Assembly (NCBI GenBank): GCA_913062975.1
Contig: CAJXZO010000008.1
Span: 1 to 41,273 of the forward strand
Reading direction: 5' to 3'
Length of the DNA: 41,273 nt
From: an uncultured Micrococcales bacterium
GTDB lineage: Bacteria; Actinomycetota; Actinomycetes; Actinomycetales; Microbacteriaceae
Shown here in pieces: positions 122 through 26,332 of this stretch. The position numbers were made by a program, and so were the translations under genes. How positions within the stretch are numbered: position 1 is the first letter of the stretch; the number at the start of each line of letters is the position of its first letter. The notes beneath the pieces are model-generated. The model was given only the letters and a program-made list of their open reading frames with translations, searched no databases and was not told where the DNA came from.

Positions 122-1150
122 ATGTCCATGGTTGGAATTGAAGAAGTTGCTGCCCGAGCGGGTGTATCGACTGCAACCGTTTCCAGGGCGCTGAACGATA
201 AAAGCCACGTTTCCAAAACAGCTAGAAAAAAGGTTTTTGAGGCCGCGGAGGAATTGGGCTATGTTCCATCCTCATCTGCTTACACTCTCGCCACTGGAAA
301 AACCCGAACCGTTGGGGTTGTGGTGCCATTCGTAGATCGCTGGTTTTTCTCGGTTGTTTTACAAGGAATTAGCACTGCCCTAAATGACAGGGGACTGAAC
401 ATAGCCTTTTACTCCCTGAAGGGAGACCTTGATCAGAGAGCCCGGGTTTTCAATGATCTGCTGTTGCGAAAAAACGTGGATGGAGTTCTGACGGTTGCCG
501 TAAAGCTGGCTTCACATGAATTGGAGAAGTTATCTAGTTTGCGGAAATCAATTGTTGGAGTTGGTGGGCCGATTACGGGGGCAAGATCATTGGGAATCGA
601 TGATGAAGGAGCCGGCAGGCTTGCAACCCAGCATTTGCTTTCCCTCGGTCACACTAAAATAGGGATTATCACTGGTGGTCCTTCAACCGAGTTGGAATTT
701 CACCAGCCCTATTTGCGCCAAACTGGATATAGGGAAGCACTCATGGATGCTGGCTTGGATTTTCAAAAAAACTGGTTCGCAGAGGCAGACTTCACAATGC
801 CCGGTGCTTATCACGCGGCCAAGCAAATTCTTGGCGACCCAAGATCAGCACCAACTGCAATATTTTGTGCAAGTGATGAGATGGCCTTTGGAGCAATCCA
901 GGCGGCCAAGGATCTGGGGTATTCAGTGCCTGATGACATAAGCGTGATTGGCATGGATAACCATGACCTCAGTGGGTTTTATAACCTCACCACCATCAAT
1001 CAAAAACCTGCTGACCAGGGTGCTGCGGCGGCGAATATGCTTGTGAATTTATTTGATCAGGACCTTGAGGACAAAAAACTAAACATCCAAGAGTTTCACG
1101 AATGGCCAATCGAGCTTCTAATCAGAGGCTCAACCGCGAGACGAAGATAG
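122..1150 (+). CDS. LacI-family transcriptional regulator
   Basis: A 342-residue one-domain-plus-HTH repressor. The N-terminal helix-turn-helix (about residues 5-26, EVAARAGVSTATVSRALN) and hinge helix are followed by a periplasmic-binding-protein-like sensor domain (GVVVPFVDRWFFS..., ASDEMAFGAIQAAKDLGY, SVIGMDNHDLS). Such proteins respond to sugars or nucleosides; the effector cannot be read from sequence. There is no Shine-Dalgarno sequence. ATG 122 and ATG 128 are both possible, and TACAGT at 115-120 would favour a leaderless start at or near 128. The stop TAG (1148-1150) forms part of the -10-like element of the next gene. No sugar catabolic operon lies beside it; manA is the nearest carbohydrate gene, but it is convergent. 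Confidence 0.92.
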   Translation: MSMVGIEEVAARAGVSTATVSRALNDKSHVSKTARKKVFEAAEELGYVPSSSAYTLATGKTRTVGVVVPFVDRWFFSVVLQGISTALNDRGLNIAFYSLKGDLDQRARVFNDLLLRKNVDGVLTVAVKLASHELEKLSSLRKSIVGVGGPITGARSLGIDDEGAGRLATQHLLSLGHTKIGIITGGPSTELEFHQPYLRQTGYREALMDAGLDFQKNWFAEADFTMPGAYHAAKQILGDPRSAPTAIFCASDEMAFGAIQAAKDLGYSVPDDISVIGMDNHDLSGFYNLTTINQKPADQGAAAANMLVNLFDQDLEDKKLNIQEFHEWPIELLIRGSTARRR

Positions 1151-1153
1151 GGT
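1148..1153 (+). promoter_or_regulatory. -10 element TAGGGT of yajQ, containing the lacI-type stop codon
   Basis: TAGGGT is followed by exactly 6 nt and then ATG 1160. Its first three bases are the stop codon of the LacI-type gene. Position and spacing match the leaderless promoters seen elsewhere in this window. GGGT could alternatively act as a weak ribosome-binding site, so the promoter reading is inference. Confidence 0.45.
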
Positions 1154-1159
1154 AATCAC

Positions 1160-1648
1160 ATGGCAGACAGTTCATTTGACATAGTAAGCAAGGTTGACGA
1201 GCAAGAGACAGACAACGCCTTGAATCAAGCTAAGAAGGAAATCCTGCAGAGGTATGACTTCAAAGGTGTCGATGCAGACATCTCTTGGAGTGGTGAGAAA
1301 ATCATCCTGAAAGCAAACAGCGAAGACCGCGTGAAGGCTGTTTTAGATGTCTTCGGTTCCAAACTCATTAAGCGAGGAATCTCACTCAAAAGTTTTGATC
1401 ACTCTGATCCGCAGGCTTCTGGCAAGGAATACCGCATCGAGGGTTCCATGAAGCAGGGAATCGATCAGGAGAATGCGAAAAAGATTAACAAGATGATTCG
1501 CGATGAAGGACCTAAGGGTGCAAAGACTCAAATCCAAGGTGATGAAATAAGAGTTAGCTCCAAATCAAGGGATGATCTGCAAGAAATTATTGCTTTGCTG
1601 AAATCAAAAGATTTGGAGCTAGATCTTCAGTTTGTTAATTACCGGTAG
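1160..1648 (+). CDS. yajQ: YajQ family nucleotide-binding protein (UPF0234)
   Basis: 162 residues, the usual length for YajQ. The start [13 protein letters not shown] and the internal QRYDFKG are characteristic of the family, which folds as two RRM-like domains. YajQ members bind nucleic acid or nucleotides, and some proteobacterial members bind cyclic di-GMP; the role in actinobacteria is not settled. The gene begins 9 bp after the LacI-type stop. Its 3' end overlaps the convergent manA end by 14 bp (1635-1648). Confidence 0.93.
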
Positions 1649-2711
1649 CCAGATAGCCGGTGCCAGCTCCTGAGAAACTAATAAGCCTTGCGTCATTGGA
1701 GATGTAACAGGCTTCGCCTTTTTTGAGATGAAGCTTTTCATCCAGTGAGTTTGAAACCACAAGCTCCCCTGAAACACAAACCAGAATGCCTGGTTCAGGC
1801 AAGTTAATGTCAGCAATCAACTGAGAACCACTGGGCTCGATACGATAGACGCGGAAATCATCAACTGAAACTTCATATTCATCTAATCCTTGCTGCAGTG
1901 ACTTAGGTCCAAGCTTTGGATTCAAAGAATCAAATACCGTTATCTCTCTAAGCAGTTCTATGTCCACGTTTTTGGATGTCAGTCCACCGCGAATCACATT
2001 GTCACTGCTTGCCATCACCTCAACACCCAGACCCTGCAGATAAGCATGTAGGTTTCCAGCTGGCAAAAACACCGCTTCCCCCGGGGCTAAGAAAATCTCA
2101 TTGAGCAAAAACGCAATCCCAAGGCCTGGGTCTTTTGGATAAAACTCACTCAAAAACTCAACCAGCTCTGATTGCGCAGCCAATGAATCCAACAATCCTG
2201 GGTCTAATTCATTGAAGACAAAATCAAAGTGCTGGCTGAGGGTTTTCTCTCCTGCTGCCCAGGATTCGAAATTTGAGTCTTTGGAAGCAATCTCTTTGAG
2301 TTCTTGATTGATTTCAGAAATTGGCCTGAAGCCACTTAGTACCCTGAAGGGGCTGATTGCAATCAATAGCTCTGGCTTGTGATTGGCATCTTTGAAGTTT
2401 CGAGAATAATCATCAATTGGTATCTCGCCGGACTGCTCCTTTTCAAACCCCGCCCTTGCCTGCTCAAGGTTTGGGTGAGACTGAATGGATAAAGGACTGG
2501 CAGCAGATAAAAACTTCACCAAAAACCCAAGTTCACCAGCGAGGTCTCTCAGGGGCTCACCCGTGTCAACTAGCGAGGGTGATGCTGGATGGGTTCCAAA
2601 CCAGAGCTCGGAAATTGGGGCATCAGTTTCTTTGCTACCAATGAGATCTGGGATCAAGTGAGTGGAACCCCAGGGGTAGCTCAGGGGAATGTTGGAAATT
2701 TTTCTAATCAT
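1635..2711 (-). CDS. manA: Mannose-6-phosphate isomerase, class I
   Basis: Interconverts mannose-6-phosphate and fructose-6-phosphate with a bound zinc ion. The type I zinc-site motifs are visible: Q-S-H near residues 77-79 ([13 protein letters not shown]), a Glu in HKPELLIAI near 114, and the [21 protein letters not shown] segment near 235 with the catalytic Arg. I choose ATG 2711, which has AAGG 9 nt upstream and overlaps the kinase stop by 8 bp; a TTG at 2720 in frame would put that site directly against the start. It is the last gene of the minus-strand operon and feeds GDP-mannose synthesis or mannose use. Confidence 0.93.
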
Positions 2712-4332
2712 CAGTTCCAACCTTAGGAACTAATGCCCTCAAAGTGCTTCCTTCACCAGATTTTGATCTCTGAAAAGTCCAATTTCCTGCGGTGACCGAT
2801 TCCACCATCTGTAATCCAAAGCCACCCTTGCCAGACCTTGGACCAATGCCATCATCGGTGATTTCAACTAGAAGATGGTTTCCGTTGTCTTGAATAAGGG
2901 CTTCAATTTTCTCCGCATAGCCATGTTTATAAGCATTTGATATTCCCTCGGAGACTATCTCCTCCACCACCCGATTGCCCTCGAGGCCTTTGTCAAGGTT
3001 CAATTGGACATCTGCCAATCCCCGCCACTGGTCAGCAATCGACGCCAAGGAATCCTGCAAGCTTTCGCTGAACTCAGGCTGGTATTCGGCCAATGGGTTG
3101 GCGATCAGGGAACTCACCAGTCCTCTGATCCTGCTTGCCTCCAAATTGTTTTTCTCCTCGTTCGCCTGTTCCAGCTGCAGACTGTATGCCATGAGTTTTG
3201 ACTGCACGGTGCCGTGGATGAATTTCGCTAAATCACCAGCACCTTTTTGGCTTACCTGTTTTTGCAATTGAGAAAGTCTTTCGCCAGCTCTCAGGTTTTC
3301 TTCCAATTCCTCAAGAATCTCTTTCTGGGTTTTTACTGACTGGGAAACACCACCTGCAAACAACAATGAGGTGAAAAGCCATACGGTTAGCACTATCCAG
3401 CCCCCAATCAGTTGCTCGAGTCCCAGTTCGGCTCGAACAACTGATCTCTCTAAAAAGATCAAACTGGATGCAATTGGTGGAAACAACAAAACCCTGAAAA
3501 GTGATTGTTTTTGAAAGAGCTTTTTATAAATAACCAATGCACCAACAAAAACCAAAGTGTCTAAAAAGACATAGGCCAATGCGGTGACGAGACCAAACTG
3601 TCCAACAGCTGCTATCAGCACCAACCACAGAGCTAGCAGTGAATAAAGTGCTACCGGCATTTCGTTTTTACTAAGCGATAGACCGATTAGACCAAACAGG
3701 GGAAACCGAGATTTCCGCTTCACCTCGCTGATCCACAACTTATGGCTCATGGGTCTAACCTCTTGCTCGGTGAAATCTCTAATCTTCGTAGCCAGCCTTT
3801 GATAGCCATCGCTATCAATGCTTTGATTGGCAGTCAAAAGCTCTCTGAGTTCTTCATCTATCTCAAAAGCCAAATTGGGTGTATCTGTATTTGTCAGTGA
3901 CCAAACCATTTCATCCCGAGTTTTGATGAACCTATTGAGCTTATTCATCACATAGCCAACCAGCGGAACACCAATCCCCCAAACCAACACTGTTGGTGTC
4001 AGCAGCGTCTCATCGGGTCCGTATTCATCCAAACCGAAAAATGATGCGTAGATGTTTATCGATTGGGAAAGCACGAGACCTGCCAGAGCGGCAATTGGGA
4101 AGATCAACCACCAATAGACACTTCCTTTTCGATAAAAAACAAACCAACTAAGACCGAGCCAAGCCAAAAGCGTTAGATAGCCAAGGAAGCTAGCCAGGGT
4201 GAAGACCAGGAAATCATCGAGCGGAACGGATTGGACAACTGGCTCAACCAGAACCGTGATTGGCAAAAGCAAAAGATAGGGTGCCCAGTGAATGCTCCAG
4301 CTACCCGAAAGATTTGCTTTGAGATCATTCAA
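2704..4332 (-). CDS. Multi-pass membrane sensor histidine kinase
   Basis: 542 residues with two hydrophobic blocks: about residues 15-130 (four likely segments) and 210-330 (about four), with a hydrophilic stretch 135-210 between them. A short coiled-coil leads to the likely phospho-acceptor H373 in FIHGTVQSKL, a HisKA_3-like variant. The C-terminal HATPase has an N box (SEGISNAYKHG, N466), a G1 box (DDGIG, 493-497) and a G2 box (GGFGLQMV, 503-510). There is no periplasmic sensor domain, so the membrane part probably senses. It starts at TTG 4332, overlapping the response-regulator stop as TTGA, so translation is probably coupled. Its partner is the gene immediately upstream. Confidence 0.9.
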   Translation of the reverse strand: MNDLKANLSGSWSIHWAPYLLLLPITVLVEPVVQSVPLDDFLVFTLASFLGYLTLLAWLGLSWFVFYRKGSVYWWLIFPIAALAGLVLSQSINIYASFFGLDEYGPDETLLTPTVLVWGIGVPLVGYVMNKLNRFIKTRDEMVWSLTNTDTPNLAFEIDEELRELLTANQSIDSDGYQRLATKIRDFTEQEVRPMSHKLWISEVKRKSRFPLFGLIGLSLSKNEMPVALYSLLALWLVLIAAVGQFGLVTALAYVFLDTLVFVGALVIYKKLFQKQSLFRVLLFPPIASSLIFLERSVVRAELGLEQLIGGWIVLTVWLFTSLLFAGGVSQSVKTQKEILEELEENLRAGERLSQLQKQVSQKGAGDLAKFIHGTVQSKLMAYSLQLEQANEEKNNLEASRIRGLVSSLIANPLAEYQPEFSESLQDSLASIADQWRGLADVQLNLDKGLEGNRVVEEIVSEGISNAYKHGYAEKIEALIQDNGNHLLVEITDDGIGPRSGKGGFGLQMVESVTAGNWTFQRSKSGEGSTLRALVPKVGTDD

Positions 4333-4955
4333 TCCACTAACCCCAACATTCGGTAGTAAATCCTTGCCAAATTCACCCGATTATTAACCTTGTCCGAAGC
4401 TGGCAGGGAGAACTTCTTCGAAATTAGAGCGATTGTTTGCTCAACGGACTTCACTGACACATCTCTTCGCTTGGCAATTTCAGCGTTGCTCAGGCCCCGG
4501 CCAATTAAACGCAGAGTTTCCAATTGCACCGGGCTTAGATTTGCAAACTCGGCTGGCAGTTCCTCTGCTTTTCCCTCGGCTGCTGCGTTTCTGATGGAGG
4601 CTTTCAGCGCCAAGATCAGCTGTTGAGTCTCAAAAATTTGCCGCTTCACCAGGTAACTGCTGGCCCTTGGCAATGACTTGGCATCCTTATCCAGCAGTCT
4701 TGGGTCTTCAAAGCTCGTTAGAAAAACAAGTCCGATCTTGGGATTTTTCTCTCTGAGCTTGCGAGCAACATCAATTCCGGTTGGACCTTTGCCCAAGTGA
4801 AGATCTATAAGTGCGCAATCATTTACCGCGGCATCTATTGCCTCGGAGGCATTGGATGCAGAGGTCACCTCAAGACCTGCTGCCCTCAAGGCGTCAGCGA
4901 CGCTTGAGCGGGTAAGGCCATCATCCTCTAAAAATAAGACGCTGAATTTCTCCAC
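4329..4955 (-). CDS. NarL/LuxR-type response regulator
   Basis: 208 residues. The receiver domain has the acidic triad start LEDD (10-12), phospho-acceptor D51 (ALIDLHLG), T80/S81 (VFLTSFED) and K104 (YLVKRQ). The linker leads to a LuxR-type HTH (LSPVQLETLRLIGRGLSNAEIAKRRDVSVKSV..., about 141-205). It is cotranscribed with the kinase behind it. The start is GTG 4955, 9 bp after the fprA stop. The TAG of fprA is the first half of TAGCAT, which sits 6 nt before this GTG, so the pair probably has its own internal leaderless promoter. The signal and targets are unknown. Confidence 0.93.
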   Translation of the reverse strand: MEKFSVLFLEDDGLTRSSVADALRAAGLEVTSASNASEAIDAAVNDCALIDLHLGKGPTGIDVARKLREKNPKIGLVFLTSFEDPRLLDKDAKSLPRASSYLVKRQIFETQQLILALKASIRNAAAEGKAEELPAEFANLSPVQLETLRLIGRGLSNAEIAKRRDVSVKSVEQTIALISKKFSLPASDKVNNRVNLARIYYRMLGLVD

Positions 4956-4961
4956 AACTAA

Positions 4962-4967
4962 ATGCTA
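4962..4967 (-). promoter_or_regulatory. -10 element TAGCAT of the response regulator, containing the fprA stop codon
   Basis: On the minus strand TAGCAT (4967-4962), 6 nt (TTAGTT), then GTG 4955. TAG is the fprA stop codon. No Shine-Dalgarno sequence precedes the GTG. The arrangement is identical in spacing to the sites at menG, menA, arsR and yajQ. Confidence 0.5.
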
Positions 4968-6311
4968 GCTGTTTGCAATGTTGACCATCTCTTCGCGATC
5001 GAAAAGCTTTTCTCGCTCCCTTCCAGAAAGCTCTCCGCGACGAAGTTCTTCTGAGTTTTCCTTAAGCCATCCATCCCAGCTGACAAATTGAACGGATTTG
5101 GAATTCAAAAACTCAACAATATCCTCTTCAGCTGGTTTTTCCGGATTCCACCAAAGCGCTTTGTCCTCAATTAGGTGAGCAATGGTCTCGATTGCATCGG
5201 CTTTGGTGTGTCCGATAAGTCCGATTGGACCGCGCTTGATCCAACCCGTTGCATAAACTCCCGGAACCTGGTTCCCCTGCTCATCAACAACACGACCCTC
5301 TTCGTTATTGATAACACCTGATTTTGAATTGAACGGAATCTCTGGAAGTTCTGAACCAAAATAACCAACCGCTCTATAAACAGCCTGCACCTGATACTCG
5401 ATCACTTCATCAGTTGCAACTGCTCCACCATTGCCATCTAGTTGATTGCGCCTGACTCTAATCCCAGTTACGTGGTCATCGCCGAGGATTTCTTCAGGAG
5501 TTGAAAGGAAGTGAAGATGCAGTCTCCTGGAAGCTTTCGGTTGAGGCTCTGCTCGCAAAGCCTCCAGGGTCTTCACCACCACTCTGGTTTGGTTGCTTGA
5601 CTCGAGTTGTTTCTCGCTACCTTCGTCATAAACAAAATCTTCGTCATAAACAATTGATTGAACACCTTCGATTGCCAGTGCTTCACGAAGCTCCAATGGG
5701 CTGAATTTCACCTGGGCTGGGCCCCTGCGACCAAACACGTGAACATCGGTGATGTTGGAATTTCTCAATCCTGCTTCCACATGCGGAGGAATTTCAGTTG
5801 ATGCCAAATCATCTGGGTGCTTGACCAGCATCCGCGAAACATCCAGGGCCACATTTCCGTTTCCAATCACCGCCACCTGCTTGGCATCCAATGGCCACTC
5901 CCTCGGAAAATCAGGGTGAGCGTCATACCAGTTCACGAAATCAGCAGCCCCAAAGCTTCCCGCAAGCTCTGCTCCTGGGATTTTTAGCTCAGCATCTTTG
6001 ATGGCACCTGTTGCAAAAATCACCGCGTTGTAATGGGTTTTTAGATCATCCAAAGTTAGGTCTTTGCCAAATTCAACGTTTCCGAAAAATCGAATGTCGC
6101 CTGCGTCCAAGACATCAAACAGGGCATTCACAATGCCTTTAATTCTTGGGTGATCGGGTGCGACACCGTAGCGAACCAAACCGTAGGGTGTTGGGAGCAT
6201 GTCAAACAGGTCAATCGAGACCTCGAAATCGCGCTCCGCCTTCAGAATTAAATCTGATGCATAAATACCCGCGGGCCCGGCGCCAACAACCGCCAAACGT
6301 AGCTTTTCCAA
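4965..6311 (-). CDS. fprA: Ferredoxin/adrenodoxin-type NADP+ reductase
   Basis: A 448-residue FAD enzyme of the adrenodoxin-reductase (FprA) family, exchanging electrons between NADPH and ferredoxin. The FAD dinucleotide fold is at the N-terminus (VVGAGPAGIYAS, residues 8-19), an NADPH-binding GNGNVALDVSRML lies near 170, and the C-terminal GWIKRGPIGLIGHTKADA is typical of the family. The start is TTG 6311, supported by AAGGAAAG a few bases upstream and the absence of another start near the FAD motif. It lies between the polyprenyl synthase and the two-component genes. No ferredoxin gene is adjacent. Confidence 0.94.
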   Translation of the reverse strand: MEKLRLAVVGAGPAGIYASDLILKAERDFEVSIDLFDMLPTPYGLVRYGVAPDHPRIKGIVNALFDVLDAGDIRFFGNVEFGKDLTLDDLKTHYNAVIFATGAIKDAELKIPGAELAGSFGAADFVNWYDAHPDFPREWPLDAKQVAVIGNGNVALDVSRMLVKHPDDLASTEIPPHVEAGLRNSNITDVHVFGRRGPAQVKFSPLELREALAIEGVQSIVYDEDFVYDEGSEKQLESSNQTRVVVKTLEALRAEPQPKASRRLHLHFLSTPEEILGDDHVTGIRVRRNQLDGNGGAVATDEVIEYQVQAVYRAVGYFGSELPEIPFNSKSGVINNEEGRVVDEQGNQVPGVYATGWIKRGPIGLIGHTKADAIETIAHLIEDKALWWNPEKPAEEDIVEFLNSKSVQFVSWDGWLKENSEELRRGELSGREREKLFDREEMVNIANS

Positions 6312-6325
6312 ATAGCTTTCCTTTG

Positions 6326-7318
6326 CTACCCCTTGCGCTCAACAACGGCATCCGCAAATGCCTCAAGCGCTTTTTTAACACTTCCATCCGGGAGTGGTGA
6401 TAAAGCCTTCTTGGCCTTTTCGGCCCAGGCAACCGCCTCCAAAACTGTTTCTTCCATGACCTCGTGCCGTCTAAGGCTATTGACAGCTTCAGCCAAATCC
6501 TCATCGGAATCTAATCCAGATGAAATCAGTTCAACCAGTTCAATAGATTTCACATCGATTTTCTTCCGAAGCAAGATTACTGGAAGAGTCGGAACTCCTG
6601 CTCGCAAATCAGTCCCCGGGGTTTTTCCCGAATCATCATCATCGCTGTTGATGTCAATCACATCATCCATCAATTGAAACGCAACCCCAACTGCCTCGCC
6701 GTATTCACCCAGTGGTTCCAGATAGTCATCAGTTGCTCCGGAGAGCATAGAACCCAGCTGTGCCGAGAGGGCAATCAATGAGCCTGTTTTATTTTTCAAA
6801 ACCTGGACATAGAAATCCATCTCGTCTTGCTCTTGATGACCAACGGTCTCATGCAACTGACCGAGAACTAGCCTTTCAAAGACCTCCGCCTGCATTCTCA
6901 AAGCACGCTCTCCCAAACCGCTTACAACTTGGCTAGCTCGAGCAAATAAAACATCACCGGTCAAAATCGCAACACTATTGCCCCAAACAGCGTGCGCTGT
7001 TGGAACACCGCGTCTCAGGTCAGCCTCATCCATCACATCGTCGTGATACAAAGTTCCAAGGTGGGTAAGCTCAATCACTGCCGCGGCTTTCAACACATCT
7101 TTGTTTTCACTATCTCCCAGATGCGAGCAGAGAAGAGTTAGCACCGGACGGATGCGCTTGCCACCGGCATTCACCAGGTGGTTTGAAGTTTCGTCTAACA
7201 ACTGATCGGTGTTGGCAATTGATTCAGAAATCAACACCTCAACCTCTTCAAGCTTTCTCTCTAAATCCTTGACCAGTGCTCGGTCAGCAATGTTTCTCAT
7301 TTGAATGGGTAGGCTCAT
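6326..7318 (-). CDS. Polyprenyl (probably long-chain) diphosphate synthase
   Basis: 330 residues, trans-isoprenyl diphosphate synthase. Visible motifs are GGKRIRP (52-58), the first aspartate-rich motif DDVMD (93-97) with downstream RRG, and the second DDVID (218-222) with GKTPGTDLRAGVPTLP. The length and position between menG and menA-pathway genes suggest that it makes the menaquinone side chain; product chain length cannot be read reliably from sequence. Its ATG overlaps the menG stop as ATGA, indicating translational coupling. Best guess is a HepT/IspB-type enzyme. Confidence 0.92.
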   Translation of the reverse strand: MSLPIQMRNIADRALVKDLERKLEEVEVLISESIANTDQLLDETSNHLVNAGGKRIRPVLTLLCSHLGDSENKDVLKAAAVIELTHLGTLYHDDVMDEADLRRGVPTAHAVWGNSVAILTGDVLFARASQVVSGLGERALRMQAEVFERLVLGQLHETVGHQEQDEMDFYVQVLKNKTGSLIALSAQLGSMLSGATDDYLEPLGEYGEAVGVAFQLMDDVIDINSDDDDSGKTPGTDLRAGVPTLPVILLRKKIDVKSIELVELISSGLDSDEDLAEAVNSLRRHEVMEETVLEAVAWAEKAKKALSPLPDGSVKKALEAFADAVVERKG

Positions 7319-8004
7319 GGCGTCTCCCCGTAGTGAACGGCAACGATGCCAAGTGAGAGGTTTTTATAACCCACATTTTCAAAACCAGCGGCTTCAATCT
7401 GGGTTGCAAAGTCGACCTGTTTTGGCCAAGCCTCAATTGACTCACCCAAATAGCTGTAGGCCTCTGGGTTTTTAGCAACCAACTTGGCAACAAATGGCAT
7501 AAACCTCTTTAGATAAAACTTGTATAGAGACCCAAACAGACCCTTTGGGTGACTGAATTCACAAATCACCAATTTGCCTCCAGGTTTAGTAACTCTGAGC
7601 ATCTCGGAGAGGGCTTTATCAACATCTTCAACATTCCTAATGCCAAAAGATATCGTCACCGCATCAAACTCTTTGTCCTTGAAGGGAAGCTTGGTCGCAT
7701 CGGCGAAGGCAAATTCGAGTTCTGGATGTCTTTTCTTGCCAACCTCCAGCATTCCCTTGGAGAAATCTGCTGCCACCACCTGCACACCTTCAGCCAATAA
7801 AGCCATTGAAGAGGTTCCAGTGCCAGCGGCTAAGTCTAAAATTCTCTGTTTGGGCTCTGGGTTAATTAGATTGCGAACTGATTTTCTCCAAAGTTTGGAT
7901 TGGCCCAGGCTCAGAATGTCATTGGTGCGGTCATAGGTTTCCGCCACCTCGTCGAACATGCGCGAGACGTCTTCGGGCCTTTTCTGCATATCCGCTTTAC
8001 TCAC
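7315..8004 (-). CDS. menG: Demethylmenaquinone methyltransferase
   Basis: 229 residues, class I SAM methyltransferase of the UbiE/MenG family, performing the last step of menaquinone synthesis. Signature features are VSRMFDEVAETYDRTNDILSLG near the N-terminus, the SAM loop DLAAGTGT (57-64), ADATKLPF near 100, and SFGIRNVEDVDKAL near 115. The start is GTG 8004, with TAGACT 6 nt upstream on the minus strand and no Shine-Dalgarno sequence, consistent with a leaderless mRNA. ATG 7989 is the alternative. It heads the run menG-polyprenyl synthase-fprA-RR-HK-manA. Confidence 0.94.
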   Translation of the reverse strand: MSKADMQKRPEDVSRMFDEVAETYDRTNDILSLGQSKLWRKSVRNLINPEPKQRILDLAAGTGTSSMALLAEGVQVVAADFSKGMLEVGKKRHPELEFAFADATKLPFKDKEFDAVTISFGIRNVEDVDKALSEMLRVTKPGGKLVICEFSHPKGLFGSLYKFYLKRFMPFVAKLVAKNPEAYSYLGESIEAWPKQVDFATQIEAAGFENVGYKNLSLGIVAVHYGETP

Positions 8005-8010
8005 TAGAAA

Positions 8011-8016
8011 AGTCTA
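8011..8016 (-). promoter_or_regulatory. -10 element TAGACT of menG, containing the upstream stop codon
   Basis: Minus-strand TAGACT (8016-8011), then TTTCTA, then GTG 8004. TAG at 8016-8014 is the stop of the 102-residue membrane protein. No convincing -35 sequence is seen 17 bp upstream, so the element would rely mainly on the -10. Confidence 0.55.
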
Positions 8017-11411: not shown

Positions 11412-11708
11412 ATGAGAAATCCTTGGATTATTTACACAGTAAGCCGATTCGCTTTGTTCTTCGGCGTATTCATTGCTCTAGACCTTATTGGCTTCAACCC
11501 GTTTTTCGCCGCATTTATTGCAGCCGTCAGCTCATTTGCGATATCGCTGGTATTTCTTGATGGCCAAAGAAGAGCAATGAGTGAAAAAATGCACAACACC
11601 TTTTCTTCAAAAAAAGATGATGACAGCGATTATGAAAACCAATTACTGGACGAATCAGAAACTGATGAAGCTGATTCCGATGGACATGGAGACAGCCCAC
11701 GCAACTGA
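11412..11708 (+). CDS. DUF4229 family small membrane protein
   Basis: 98 residues. Two transmembrane segments (about 6-28 and 30-50) carry the DUF4229 pattern YTVSRFALFFG and ends with LDGQRRAMSEKM, followed by a strongly acidic tail of about 40 residues. Function is unknown; the family is typical of actinobacteria and often sits near menaquinone genes. The last 54 bp overlap the 3' end of convergent menA, so its acidic tail is encoded antisense to the last MenA helix. Confidence 0.82.
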   Translation: MRNPWIIYTVSRFALFFGVFIALDLIGFNPFFAAFIAAVSSFAISLVFLDGQRRAMSEKMHNTFSSKKDDDSDYENQLLDESETDEADSDGHGDSPRN

Positions 11709-12533
11709 TGCATAACTTGTTAGTTTCAAACCAGTTATCAACTCTTTGGCGGTTTTTGCAGTAGGAACCAAAAGACTCAAAGGAATCACCAGCAACAAGA
11801 CCAACCAAGCCAAGATGGTTGCGGGGTATGCCAAAACATAGGGCAGAGTGATGATCATCGGAAGCCAGATTAAGAACAAATAAAGTGACTTGCTGGCCTT
11901 TGACCCCATCATCACCGCAAGCGTTCGCTTTTTGGCCTGCCTATCAGTTTCAATGTCTCTGATGTTGTTGGCAACCAAAACCGCAGCTGCAAAAGAGCCC
12001 AGTCCTATGCCGCCTATTAATGCATCATCTTGGAAACTGAGTGTCTGCACATAAGAGGTTCCCAAGGTCGCAACTGGTCCAAAAAAGATAAAAACACTTA
12101 GCTCACCCAGTCCCGCGTAACCATATGGGTTGCGGCCTCCCGTGTAATACCAGGCGGCCAGAATGGCCAGTAATCCAACAATCACCAACCACCACTGCTG
12201 GGTAACAACAATGATGGCTGCTCCAGATGCGGCTGCGAGTGCAAAAAACACAACTGCGACCCGCAAAACCTTCGGTGGCTCAACAGTTCCGGAACCAGTC
12301 AGTCGAGCAGGACCAACTCGGAATTCGTCTGTGCCACGAACACCATCGGAGTAATCATTTGAATAATTCACTCCCAACTGCAAAAACAAACTGACCATCA
12401 ACGCCAAAAAAGCAATTGCGAGGTTTAGTTGGTCAACATTGTTGGCAACCGCGGTTCCTAAAACAACTGGGGATACTGCTAGTGGGAGGGTGCGCACTCT
12501 GGCACCCGAGACCCACTGCGAGATTGAAGCCAT
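11655..12533 (-). CDS. menA: 1,4-dihydroxy-2-naphthoate polyprenyltransferase
   Basis: 292 residues, UbiA-superfamily integral membrane enzyme that attaches the polyprenyl chain to DHNA. The two metal-binding motifs are NDYSDGVRGTD (59-69) and NNIRDIETDRQAKKRTLAV (near 190). Eight or nine hydrophobic helices are visible. The gene starts 9 bp after menE: TAG of menE forms TAGCAT, 6 nt before ATG 12533. The 3' end overlaps the convergent DUF4229 gene by 54 bp. Confidence 0.95.
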   Translation of the reverse strand: MASISQWVSGARVRTLPLAVSPVVLGTAVANNVDQLNLAIAFLALMVSLFLQLGVNYSNDYSDGVRGTDEFRVGPARLTGSGTVEPPKVLRVAVVFFALAAASGAAIIVVTQQWWLVIVGLLAILAAWYYTGGRNPYGYAGLGELSVFIFFGPVATLGTSYVQTLSFQDDALIGGIGLGSFAAAVLVANNIRDIETDRQAKKRTLAVMMGSKASKSLYLFLIWLPMIITLPYVLAYPATILAWLVLLLVIPLSLLVPTAKTAKELITGLKLTSYASVAWAVSMSIGISFISF

Positions 12534-12539
12534 GGCCCA

Positions 12540-12545
12540 ATGCTA
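12540..12545 (-). promoter_or_regulatory. -10 element TAGCAT of menA, containing the menE stop codon
   Basis: Minus-strand TAGCAT (12545-12540), 6 nt (TGGGCC), ATG 12533. TAG is the stop codon of menE. GGG in the spacer is too close to the ATG for a normal ribosome-binding site. This could give menA a supply of transcript independent of menB-menE. Confidence 0.48.
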
Positions 12546-13634: not shown

Positions 13635-14515
13635 CAGAAGTGCCAGGGAAAACCTGACCAGTCAGGCTTGCGTTTTTCCAAAAAGGCATCCTTGCCCTCT
13701 TTTGCCTCTTCCGATGCATATGCCAGCCTGGTCGCCTCACCTGCAAACAACTGCTGACCCACCATTCCGTCATCGGTCATGTTCATTGCATATTTCAACA
13801 TGCGAACAGCAGTTGGTGATTTAGCCAAAATCTGTTCGGCAAACTCAATACCTGTTTTTTCTAAGTCCTGATGGGCAACAACCCTGTTTACCAAACCAAT
13901 CTCATAGGCCCTCTGAGCTGAATACTCCTCGGCTAAAAAGAAAATCTCCCTGGCTGTTTTCTGGCCAACCTGCTTGGCAAGATAAGCACTCCCGTAACCT
14001 GCATCAAAAGATCCAACATCGGCATCGGTTTGTTTGAACCTGGCATGCTCAGCACTGGCAATTGATAAATCGCTAATCACGTTCAAGCTATGCCCACCAC
14101 CTGCAGCCCAACCACTAACCAAGCTGATAACCACCTTTGGCATAAACCTAATCAGTCTCTGAACTTCTAAGATGTGAAGTCTGCCTGCTCCATCTGGCTG
14201 GTATTGATAACCAGAATCACCTCTGACTCTTTGATCCCCGCCTGAGCAATAAGCCCAGCCACCGTCTTTCGGACTTGGTCCATTGCCGGTAAGCAGCACC
14301 ACTCCCACATCAGCACTAACCCTTGCGTGTTCCAAAACAGCATGCAGTTCATCCACCGTTTCAGGCCTAAAGGCGTTTCTGATCTCTGGTCTGTTGATTG
14401 CCACCCTGACAACACCAAGAGTCACATGGCGGTGATAAGTGACATCACTTAGCTCAAAACCCTCTACCTGTTTCCAGATAGTCTCATCAAAAATCTCTGA
14501 AACCTGATTCACCAT
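13634..14515 (-). CDS. menB: 1,4-dihydroxy-2-naphthoyl-CoA synthase
   Basis: 293 residues, crotonase family. The MenB-specific motifs are present: YCSGGDQRVRGDSGYQ near 88, SGWAAGGGHSLNVISDLSIAS near 140 and ADVGSFDAGYGSAYLA near 173, with the C-terminal KRKPDWSGFPWHF. It converts o-succinylbenzoyl-CoA to DHNA-CoA. It is the first gene of menB-menE-menA. Only 17 bp separate its ATG from the divergent menC start; TAGTCT lies 6 nt upstream, and there is no Shine-Dalgarno sequence. Confidence 0.96.
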   Translation of the reverse strand: MVNQVSEIFDETIWKQVEGFELSDVTYHRHVTLGVVRVAINRPEIRNAFRPETVDELHAVLEHARVSADVGVVLLTGNGPSPKDGGWAYCSGGDQRVRGDSGYQYQPDGAGRLHILEVQRLIRFMPKVVISLVSGWAAGGGHSLNVISDLSIASAEHARFKQTDADVGSFDAGYGSAYLAKQVGQKTAREIFFLAEEYSAQRAYEIGLVNRVVAHQDLEKTGIEFAEQILAKSPTAVRMLKYAMNMTDDGMVGQQLFAGEATRLAYASEEAKEGKDAFLEKRKPDWSGFPWHF

Positions 14516-14520
14516 TTCTC

Positions 14521-14527
14521 TAGACTA
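14521..14527. promoter_or_regulatory. Shared bidirectional -10 element TAGACTA between menB and menC
   Basis: On the plus strand TAGACT (14521-14526) is followed by 6 nt and GTG 14533 (menC). On the minus strand TAGTCT (14527-14522) is followed by 6 nt and ATG 14515 (menB). The two hexamers overlap by five bases and the spacing is identical on both sides. Each -35 would lie inside the opposite gene. Confidence 0.6.
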
Positions 14528-14532
14528 ATTCA

Positions 14533-15504
14533 GTGATCGAGCTAAAAGAACTTCTAGCCAACTCAACTGTGCTCTCAATGCCTTTGAAAACACCTTTTCG
14601 AGGCCTCAATCACAGAGAAGTAATGATCTTTGAATCAGAAAACGGATTTAGCGAATGGTCACCATTTTTGGAATACTCCACCATCGAATCAGCCAGGTGG
14701 CTGAAGGCAAGCCTCAATTGGTTAGAAAACACAAGGCCAAAGACAAAAACAGATTCAATAACCCCTAACGCAACCCTGCCTGCAATCGATGCCTCAGAGG
14801 TTGGAAGTGTTCTAAAAAAATATAAACACCTAAACACCGTCAAAATAAAAATCGCCGAACCGGGACAACCTCGTCAGGCTGATCTGCAAAGAATTCAAGC
14901 GGCAATCAATTTTGCCCCAGAGGCAAACATCAGATTGGATGCCAATGGCGGACTGGACATTGAGCAAAGCCTTGAGCTGATCTATTGGCTAAAACATGAG
15001 TCAGTAAATCTGCAATACCTAGAGCAGCCGGTGAAGACCATCGAAGAGATGTCAAAGCTCAAATCAGAGATTGAATCTCAGCAACTTGAGGTGCTGATTG
15101 CAGCCGATGAATCGATTAGGAAAAACACTGATCCCTTCGAAGTTGACAGCGAGCAAGCTGCAGATCTGATGGTTGTTAAGTGGCAACCCCTGGGTGGCAT
15201 TCAAGAAATTTTGGAAATCAATCACAAAGTCAACACCCCGCTGGTGGTTTCTTCTGCTTTGGAATCTGCCATTGGACTAAACGCTGGCATCTGGCTTGCC
15301 TGCAGCTTGGATTCAGGTTTTGACCCAGGCCTTGGAACATCTTCTCTGTTCGTTAGAGACATCGTCGATGAACTGCCCATGGAGGCCGTTGAGATAAGCC
15401 CCAACCGAGACACCATGAAATCTCTAGAGGCAGATGCTGAAACAACCTCTCGTTGGCAGCAAAGGCTCACAGATTGCTACAGACAGCTTTATAGCCCTGA
15501 GTAA
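14533..15504 (+). CDS. menC: o-Succinylbenzoate synthase
   Basis: 323 residues, enolase superfamily. Active-site residues can be placed: KIK (K104, K106), D136 in LDANGG, E164 in LEQPV, D192 in AADES and K216 in VVKWQPLGG, the full metal and base set. It dehydrates SHCHC to o-succinylbenzoate. The start is GTG 14533, with TAGACT 6 nt upstream, suggesting a leaderless transcript. The 3' end overlaps the convergent ccsA end by 16 bp. Confidence 0.94.
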   Translation: MIELKELLANSTVLSMPLKTPFRGLNHREVMIFESENGFSEWSPFLEYSTIESARWLKASLNWLENTRPKTKTDSITPNATLPAIDASEVGSVLKKYKHLNTVKIKIAEPGQPRQADLQRIQAAINFAPEANIRLDANGGLDIEQSLELIYWLKHESVNLQYLEQPVKTIEEMSKLKSEIESQQLEVLIAADESIRKNTDPFEVDSEQAADLMVVKWQPLGGIQEILEINHKVNTPLVVSSALESAIGLNAGIWLACSLDSGFDPGLGTSSLFVRDIVDELPMEAVEISPNRDTMKSLEADAETTSRWQQRLTDCYRQLYSPE

Positions 15505-23995: not shown

Positions 23996-24274
23996 TTACT
24001 TCTTGAGTCTCTTGATTTCGTTTTCCACGTCTTCATCAGTGATTGGACGTTCAAACCCTTTTCCGTAAGCCTCATAGCCGGTCACCAAAACCGCAATGCC
24101 GATACCAAAGGCTGGCCATACAGGCCAAAAGTAAGTTCCGGGCATGACTATGAAGTAAATGGCGGTAGTCAATGCAAAAACAAAAATCCAAACAAAAACT
24201 AGGCTTCTAAAATCCTGTTTTGCCTTCAGTTTCTTTTTGGCGAACTTTCTTAGTTCCTCATCACTTGTTGCCAC
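23996..24274 (-). CDS. 2TM-domain membrane protein
   Basis: 92 residues. A basic N-terminal helix precedes two transmembrane segments (about 24-44 and 50-69), then an amphipathic charged tail. It resembles the 2TM family, of unknown function. GTG 24274 has AGAGGG 6 nt upstream and overlaps the end of the upstream regulator gene by 14 bp, so the pair is coupled. Confidence 0.78.
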   Translation of the reverse strand: MATSDEELRKFAKKKLKAKQDFRSLVFVWIFVFALTTAIYFIVMPGTYFWPVWPAFGIGIAVLVTGYEAYGKGFERPITDEDVENEIKRLKK

Positions 24275-24857
24275 GGTTAACCCTCTTCTTCACTTCTTCA
24301 GAAAGGTGGTCAACTTCGTCTTTCACGCTCTTGGAGACCTCGTCAACCTTGGTCTTTGCCTGCTGTTCTAATTCCTTAGCCTGCTTCTCGGCTTCGCTTT
24401 TGCCCTCGGCGATTCTGCGACCAAGGTCTTTACCAGCCTGCTTTGGGTCAAAATCGATGTTTACTCGATCTTGAACCTTGTCTCTTAGCCAGCCTGCGCT
24501 TTTGGTCAACCACTGACCTAACTGCTCGCCGGCTTCACCCAGTCGTTCACTGAGAATCTCCTCAGCGTCGACCTCATAATCCATGCTCAAAAACGTAACT
24601 ACCCAATCCTCAACCTGCTCGAGCGCCTCTGGGGTGACACTGTAAAAGCGCTTCTGCCCATCCTCACGCGCGCTGACTAGATCTGCCTCGCGCAAAACCT
24701 TTAGGTGCTTAGAAACTGTCGGCTGTCCCATCTGGGTGTGCTCAACCAGCTCGCTTACGGTCATTTCACCTTCGCCACCAGACAGCTTGCTCTGCAATAA
24801 AGCGTCCAGCATGTGCCTGCGGTTTGGATCTGCAATTGCTTCGTATATATCCGCCAT
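24261..24857 (-). CDS. ArsR-type winged-helix regulator with long charged tail
   Basis: 198 residues. The N-terminal 90 residues are an ArsR/SmtB-like winged helix (ADPNRRHMLDALL, TVSELVEHTQMGQPTVSKHLKVLREADLV, GQKRFYSVTPEAL). There is no visible cysteine metal site. The C-terminal half (about 100-198) is long, charged and coiled-coil-like, which is unusual for this family. TAGACT is 6 nt before ATG 24857, and its TAG is the proC stop. The signal is unknown; the neighbouring 2TM protein is a plausible partner. Confidence 0.87.
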   Translation of the reverse strand: MADIYEAIADPNRRHMLDALLQSKLSGGEGEMTVSELVEHTQMGQPTVSKHLKVLREADLVSAREDGQKRFYSVTPEALEQVEDWVVTFLSMDYEVDAEEILSERLGEAGEQLGQWLTKSAGWLRDKVQDRVNIDFDPKQAGKDLGRRIAEGKSEAEKQAKELEQQAKTKVDEVSKSVKDEVDHLSEEVKKRVNRGNK

Positions 24858-24863
24858 GGAATA

Positions 24864-24869
24864 AGTCTA
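24864..24869 (-). promoter_or_regulatory. -10 element TAGACT of the ArsR-type gene, containing the proC stop codon
   Basis: Minus-strand TAGACT (24869-24864), 6 nt (TATTCC), ATG 24857. TAG is the proC stop codon. No Shine-Dalgarno sequence precedes the ATG. Confidence 0.55.
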
Positions 24870-26326: not shown

Positions 26327-26332
26327 AATCTA
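26327..26332 (-). promoter_or_regulatory. -10 element TAGATT of the membrane-anchored protein gene
   Basis: Minus-strand TAGATT (26332-26327), 6 nt (GAATCC), ATG 26320. It starts one base after the TAA stop of the GNAT gene. Confidence 0.5.

Follow-up and report, generated by a model that had tools for sequence, protein, structure and literature searches.

In the 41,273-nucleotide stretch of an uncultured Micrococcales (Microbacteriaceae) genome analyzed here, contig CAJXZO010000008.1 (the window), the stop codon at five same-strand gene junctions forms the first half of a hexamer that we read as the predicted -10 element of the following gene. We assign a probability of about 0.8 to the interpretation that such junctions are in-operon leaderless promoters, in which a TAnnnT -10 box would lie 12 nucleotides (less often 13) upstream of the start codon and in frame with the upstream gene. 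The motif, its spacing and enrichment, the start-codon and Shine-Dalgarno (SD) profile of the genes that carry it, and the conservation of the box at a few junctions are features of the sequence itself. The proposal that a single hexamer would serve as both stop codon and predicted -10 fits the sequence tests described below, which concern the sixth-base T, spacing, the box before intergenic genes, TTG starts, SD sequences, base context and relatives.

Table 1. Fused junctions of the window, their genes and an unfused box. Positions are those of the window.
Feature	Positions	Strand	Sequence or context
Fused stop/-10 TAGGGT	1148..1153	+	then AATCAC ATG; LacI-type gene to yajQ
Fused stop/-10 TAGCAT	4962..4967	-	then TTAGTT GTG; oxidoreductase gene (fprA) to response regulator; oxidoreductase stop at 4965-4967 within TAGCAT, response-regulator GTG at 4955
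Fused stop/-10 TAGACT	8011..8016	-	then TTTCTA GTG; 102-aa gene to menG
Fused stop/-10 TAGCAT	12540..12545	-	then TGGGCC ATG; menE-like gene to menA
Fused stop/-10 TAGACT	24864..24869	-	then TATTCC ATG; proC to ArsR-family gene
yajQ	1160..1648	+	NF003819 above cut-off
Histidine kinase	2704..4332	-	HATPase_c; TTG start would give 4-nt overlap with regulator
Response regulator, predicted leaderless	4329..4955	-	receiver PF00072 and GerE PF00196
Pyridine-nucleotide oxidoreductase (fprA of the earlier note)	4965..6311	-	Pfam PF07992 (Pyr_redox_2)
menG	7315..8004	-	TIGR01934 above cut-off
menA	11655..12533	-	NF004751 and TIGR00751 above cut-off
ArsR-family regulator	24261..24857	-	NF033788 above cut-off
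Unfused TAGATT box	26327..26332	-	-12 of gene; upstream stop ends 13 bp before start

As shown in Table 1, all five junctions named in an earlier note on this DNA were found where it had placed them. Each reads TAGnnT-N6-ATG/GTG: the stop is TAG, the sixth base is T and 9 bp separate the two genes. In 5/5 cases TAnnnT lies 12 nucleotides upstream of the start codon. No SD core was flagged at any of the five, which indicates that they are not stop/SD fusions. Among the 44 listed starts of the window, 11 have the box at -12 and one (22813) has it at -13. Starts that have an unfused box at -12 include 11372, 19907, 23093 and 26320.

Several gene names given in the earlier note were upheld: yajQ, menG, menA, proC and the ArsR family all pass their NCBIfam cut-offs. 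The lacI and menE names had NCBIfam matches below cut-off only, and the gene called fprA could be assigned to Pyr_redox_2 and no further. Profile alignments agree with the called starts, which begin with residue 2 at profile position 2 for the YajQ and ArsR proteins, residue 1 at position 1 for MenG, and residue 1 at position 7 for MenA. The closest named record to the response regulator, at 83% identity, is from an uncultured Micrococcales MAG. The histidine kinase start was placed at 4272 by our custom gene caller. Because the regulator and kinase frames can overlap by 4 nucleotides, the promoter would probably drive the two-component pair apart from the oxidoreductase gene; the suggestion that the pair is driven separately would hold in that sense, and not in the sense of driving one partner apart from the other.

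Junctions were counted in the source genome (G000, a MAG of 1,136,117 bases in 32 contigs, 78.84% complete) over 827,546 bases (73%) containing 546 same-strand pairs, and in 348-400 kb from each of five members of the family (G002, G008, G012, G015 and G032). Genes were called by a custom script that scores codons alone and takes no account of what lies upstream of the start; a second start rule was also applied in G000. The Escherichia coli control consisted of 200 kb with 102 pairs. From an other-lineage sample of 79 loci, 7 were dropped as other phyla by their titles and another 7 excluded for their lower GC, leaving a high-GC sample of 65 loci and 149 pairs.

The earlier note had proposed counting the pattern genome-wide, and both of its elements proved to be in excess. 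A gap of 9 bp separates 20 of the 546 pairs in G000, as against 2, 6, 3, 4, 6, 7 and 6 pairs at gaps of 5, 6, 7, 8, 10, 11 and 12, and 8, 6, 6 and 4 pairs at the same-phase gaps of 3, 6, 12 and 15; other frequent spacings are 0 (20 pairs), -4 (86) and -1 (46). At TAG/TAA stops the sixth base is T in 16/18 cases at gap 9 and in 57/210 at other gaps of at least 6 (Fisher p = 3.0e-7). The box stands at -12 in 16/20 gap-9 pairs, and the two TGA sites lack its TA. Use of TAG as the stop, which describes the five window junctions, does not extend to the genome as a whole, where gap-9 stops comprise 13 TAG, 5 TAA and 2 TGA. Under the second start rule gap 9 occurs in 23 pairs, with T in 19/22. When offsets of 0-24 after a TAG/TAA stop were scanned for ATG/GTG in the frame of the next gene, offset 9 gave 19 sites with T and 4 without, and each of the other offsets gave at most 4 with T.

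Pooling the six genomes yielded 47 gap-9 pairs, whereas gaps 5-8 and 11-13 average 14.7 pairs. Set against 148/764 at other gaps of at least 3, T is the sixth base in 29 of the 45 TAG/TAA stops at gap 9 (p = 2.6e-10) and in 13 of 24 at gap 10 (26 pairs; p = 2.1e-4). The stop/-10 pattern is statistically real. Its fused gap-9 form is commoner in G000 (16/546 pairs) than in the five relatives (13/1224; p = 0.007). Among gap-9 pairs the box is at -12 in 3/5 (G012), 1/4 (G015), 2/6 (G032) and 4/4 (G008), with identical counts for the sixth-base T at their TAG/TAA stops, and the eight gap-9 pairs of G002, all TAG/TAA, divide into three with T, four that are SD-like and one that is neither; taken singly, the relatives give weak evidence for the sixth-base T. 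In tallies over every position of whole genomes, TAGnnT-N6-ATG is more frequent than its reversed control in 52/59 and TAGnnA-N6-ATG in 7/59, the tallies for G000 being 106 to 51 and 94 to 64. Counting against the promoter reading, TAGnnT is not above control in 7/59 genomes, and the source genus is among the seven in which TAGnnA is above control.

The box also precedes intergenic genes. In G000, TAnnnT lies 12 nucleotides upstream of 67/402 such genes and 13 nucleotides upstream of 28/402 (background 6.35 per position), and at 12 it was found in 51/229 (G012), 31/203 (G015), 35/234 (G032) and 24/244 (G008). The third base of the G000 intergenic box is G in 40 cases, A in 17, T in 6 and C in 4; thus 57/67 read TAG or TAA. 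Since the box in this family is usually TAGnnT or TAAnnT, one that falls in frame supplies, with its first half, the stop codon of the upstream gene. RNA polymerase would then begin at the first base of the downstream ATG or GTG to give a leaderless mRNA. Read-through mRNA from upstream would mostly lack an SD sequence for the downstream gene, so that its translation would need reinitiation after the stop; we infer both the transcription start at fused boxes and this fate of read-through mRNA.

Start codons and SD sequences of the box genes were compared with those of other genes. Across five genomes, 273 genes carry the box at -12 and none of them starts with TTG, compared with 214/2212 genes overall; TTG starts at two gap-10 fused sites in relatives count against the leaderless reading. 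In G000, an SD core was found in 4/68 box genes whose upstream neighbor either has the opposite orientation or is separated from them by 25 bp or more (3/46 and 1/22), in 106/414 comparable genes overall, and in 2/16 fused gap-9 box genes. The 158 box genes with gaps of at least 40 bp favor C at -8, T/G at -6 and C at -1, and fused sites have the same context bases. Scored at positions -9, -8 and -6 to -1, 26 fused gap-9 sites were nearer to intergenic box genes than were 112 control stops that share the T (p = 3.6e-5; G000 fused sites alone, p = 7.7e-4).

Column frequencies and k-mers in the same 158 genes revealed neither an enriched column nor a TTGA/TTGC peak near -35; the -35 hexamer of a sigma-70 type two-hexamer promoter was looked for in these box genes and not found. 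In the 65 high-GC loci of other lineages the box occurs at 12, 13 and 14 before 6, 4 and 6 of 168 intergenic genes (background 0.15); their 149 pairs include one gap-9 pair (TGA) and one gap-10 pair (TAACGT), too few to judge. Gaps downstream of fused genes, which were examined for fused genes heading tightly packed sub-operons, were mixed.

Box, spacing, ATG/GTG starts, scarce SD sequences, the lack of a visible -35 and C at -1 together resemble actinobacterial leaderless promoters. They match leaderless transcription measured in Corynebacterium and Mycobacterium (PMC3890552, PMC6448022, PMC4633059; these and all other sources are cited from excerpts). Excerpts of the M. smegmatis study describe measured promoters with ANNNT, two dominant spacings and more abundant C at -1, and report no consensus detected in the -35 region; the NNN of that box is given as without base bias, unlike the box described here, which is biased at its third base, with a further bias at -8 (PMC6448022). 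Leaderless mRNAs of C. glutamicum begin with AUG or GUG only (PMC3890552), and in a reporter only ATG and GTG initiate at the leaderless position (PMC4633059). That no -35 element was found here counts against the promoter reading, although the one noted for S. lividans is weakly conserved (PMC8079986). There is also a likeness to the published stop/SD overlap, where the stop doubles as an initiation signal, spacers are short and stop choice is adapted; unlike that overlap, the second signal here would be a transcription signal on DNA and not a ribosome-binding site on RNA (PMC2784483). PMC6319747 was considered as a precedent for its words 'overlaps the stop codon' and set aside, as the excerpt concerns an overlapping start codon and not a promoter. 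In the leaderless-related, mostly open-access literature, as far as its excerpts extend, no description of stop/-10 fusion as a recurrent architecture was found, and our literature search found no paper on leaderless transcripts with mapped starts in Microbacteriaceae.

Relatives were compared junction by junction, using part of each genome; most fused junctions are without a syntenic copy in this material. The sixth T, whose conservation the earlier note had wished to see checked, is kept in the few junctions of a first group. Between the oxidoreductase gene and the response regulator, TAGCAT and the 9 bp gap are the same in two loci, L003 and L152, and the flanking codons differ; the letters of the two loci are identical, and they are perhaps one genome. 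TAGCAT also stands in a third locus (L004), where the contig edge lies too near for the upstream gene to be called. A further two gap-9 junctions of G000 have a syntenic copy in G002 and retain stop, sixth T and gap, with different bases following: the first reads TAGGAT followed by GAAGTC in G000 and GTCAAT in G002, and the second reads TAAGGT TCGGCT in G000 and TAAGAT TTCAGT in G002. One gap-10 junction is nearly identical between G000 and its syntenic G002 copy.

In other cases the box is kept and the stop is not. Upstream of yajQ in G012, TAAACT stands at the same distance as the box here, but 35 bp separate the upstream stop from the start codon (the upstream gene was matched by best hit within a paralog-rich family). 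One gap-10 site of G000 corresponds to a gap-4 site of G012, in which TAGGCT is kept and the stop has moved to the last base of the box. This gap-4 form, where the T of the stop is the sixth base of the box (TAGnnTAG), accounts for 3/6 gap-4 pairs in G000 and 2/4 in G012. A gap-9 site in G015 has as its counterpart a fused gap-10 site in G032 and, in G000, a 99 bp gap with no box at -12. Elsewhere the junction is of another kind: the menA ortholog of G012 has a 4 bp overlap and an SD-like GAGGA instead of the fused box, and menA and two other fused G000 junctions are overlapping or zero-gap in relatives, mostly with an SD-like sequence. Retention of the box while the stop moves, and SD junctions in relatives, show that box and stop are separable and that the fused state is one of several.

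We hold it as a tentative possibility, somewhat short of even odds, that the fused layout is a rule in this actinobacterial family, with fused in-operon promoters preferentially kept and buried out-of-frame boxes removed. Its rival, passive capture of the stop, accepts the promoter reading and disputes only selection: boxes would fall in random phase, and one that lies in frame would happen to end the upstream gene, with no selection for fusion. The composition of the intergenic box, which mostly reads TAG or TAA already, favors passive capture, as do the yajQ gap of 35 bp in G012 versus 9 here with the box in the same place, and the equal numbers of fused and buried boxes in G008 (4 and 4). 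Random phase, however, predicts about two buried out-of-frame boxes for each fused one. In G000, TARnnT at -12 is fused in 16 cases and buried in 4 (p = 2.5e-5), or buried in 7 with three gap-4 boxes included (p = 4.2e-4); the sum over four relatives is 10 fused and 7 buried (p = 0.027, gap 4 left out). Buried boxes may have been purged or fused ones favored, the evidence outside G000 being weak, and we consider passive capture less likely than not. If the fused layout is a rule, operons would be split into units with starts of their own while spending hardly any spacer DNA, and fused junctions would be interchangeable over evolution with SD-led junctions.

Alternatively, the 9 bp gap might be set by ribosomes that stop and restart nearby, in which case the hexamer would be no promoter. 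Reinitiation is generally favored by close stop and start codons (PMC4633059), and gap 9 is relatively common in the E. coli sample too (5/102 pairs), so that the diagnostic feature is T together with the box and not the gap alone. In that sample T follows 1/4 TAG/TAA stops at gap 9 and the box at -12 is not enriched (1/105 intergenic starts; background 2.25). Reinitiation spacing leaves unexplained the sixth-base T, the 9/10 positions, the intergenic box and the absence of TTG starts; we regard it as very improbable and reject it as the general cause on the T, the intergenic box and the TTG starts.

A stop fused to an SD sequence (TAGGAG, TAAGGA) is a more remote candidate still for the general cause of the spacing. 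Overlap of this kind is already published (PMC2784483), and across the six genomes an SD core is present at 10/16 non-T TAG/TAA stops at gap 9 and 6/11 at gap 10; the two gap-9 TAG/TAA stops of G000 without the sixth T both read TAGGAG. Such fusion covers a minority class only, and the T class of G000, with its 2/16 SD cores, refutes it as the general cause and leaves it valid for its own subset. Gaps 9 and 10 thus host two alternative fusions, stop/-10 and stop/SD, in G000, G002 and relatives. Chance combined with a gene-calling artefact, which a 78.84% complete MAG, a custom gene caller and five hand-picked cases might invite, is the least credible reading of all, as the genome-wide counts, two start rules, six pooled genomes and whole-genome pattern tallies speak against it.

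If the promoter reading is correct, a TARnnT stop followed by 6-7 nucleotides and ATG/GTG is a rule that marks in-operon promoters and gene starts, usable in streamlined actinobacteria without expression data. It would also run counter to the published view, as excerpted, in which a gene of a polycistronic transcript can be leaderless only if it comes first (PMC3160421). Fusion of stop and -10 would tie stop-codon choice to promoter grammar.

A further arrangement of the box was seen at a divergent gene pair in the window (14515-14533), where a 17 bp gap contains the symmetric sequence TAGACTA and the start codons are 18 bp apart. TAGACT is at -12 of the plus-strand gene and TAGTCT at -12 of the minus-strand gene. 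The distance between the start codons is like that in published bidirectional promoters, whose start sites are also spaced by 18 bp; unlike those promoters, both start codons here would be the promoter's own +1 (PMC10268837, from excerpts). Among divergent pairs of the six genomes, gap 17 occurs five times and any other gap in the range 8 to 24 no more than twice, and symmetric TAnnnTA was found in 2/5 of the gap-17 pairs.
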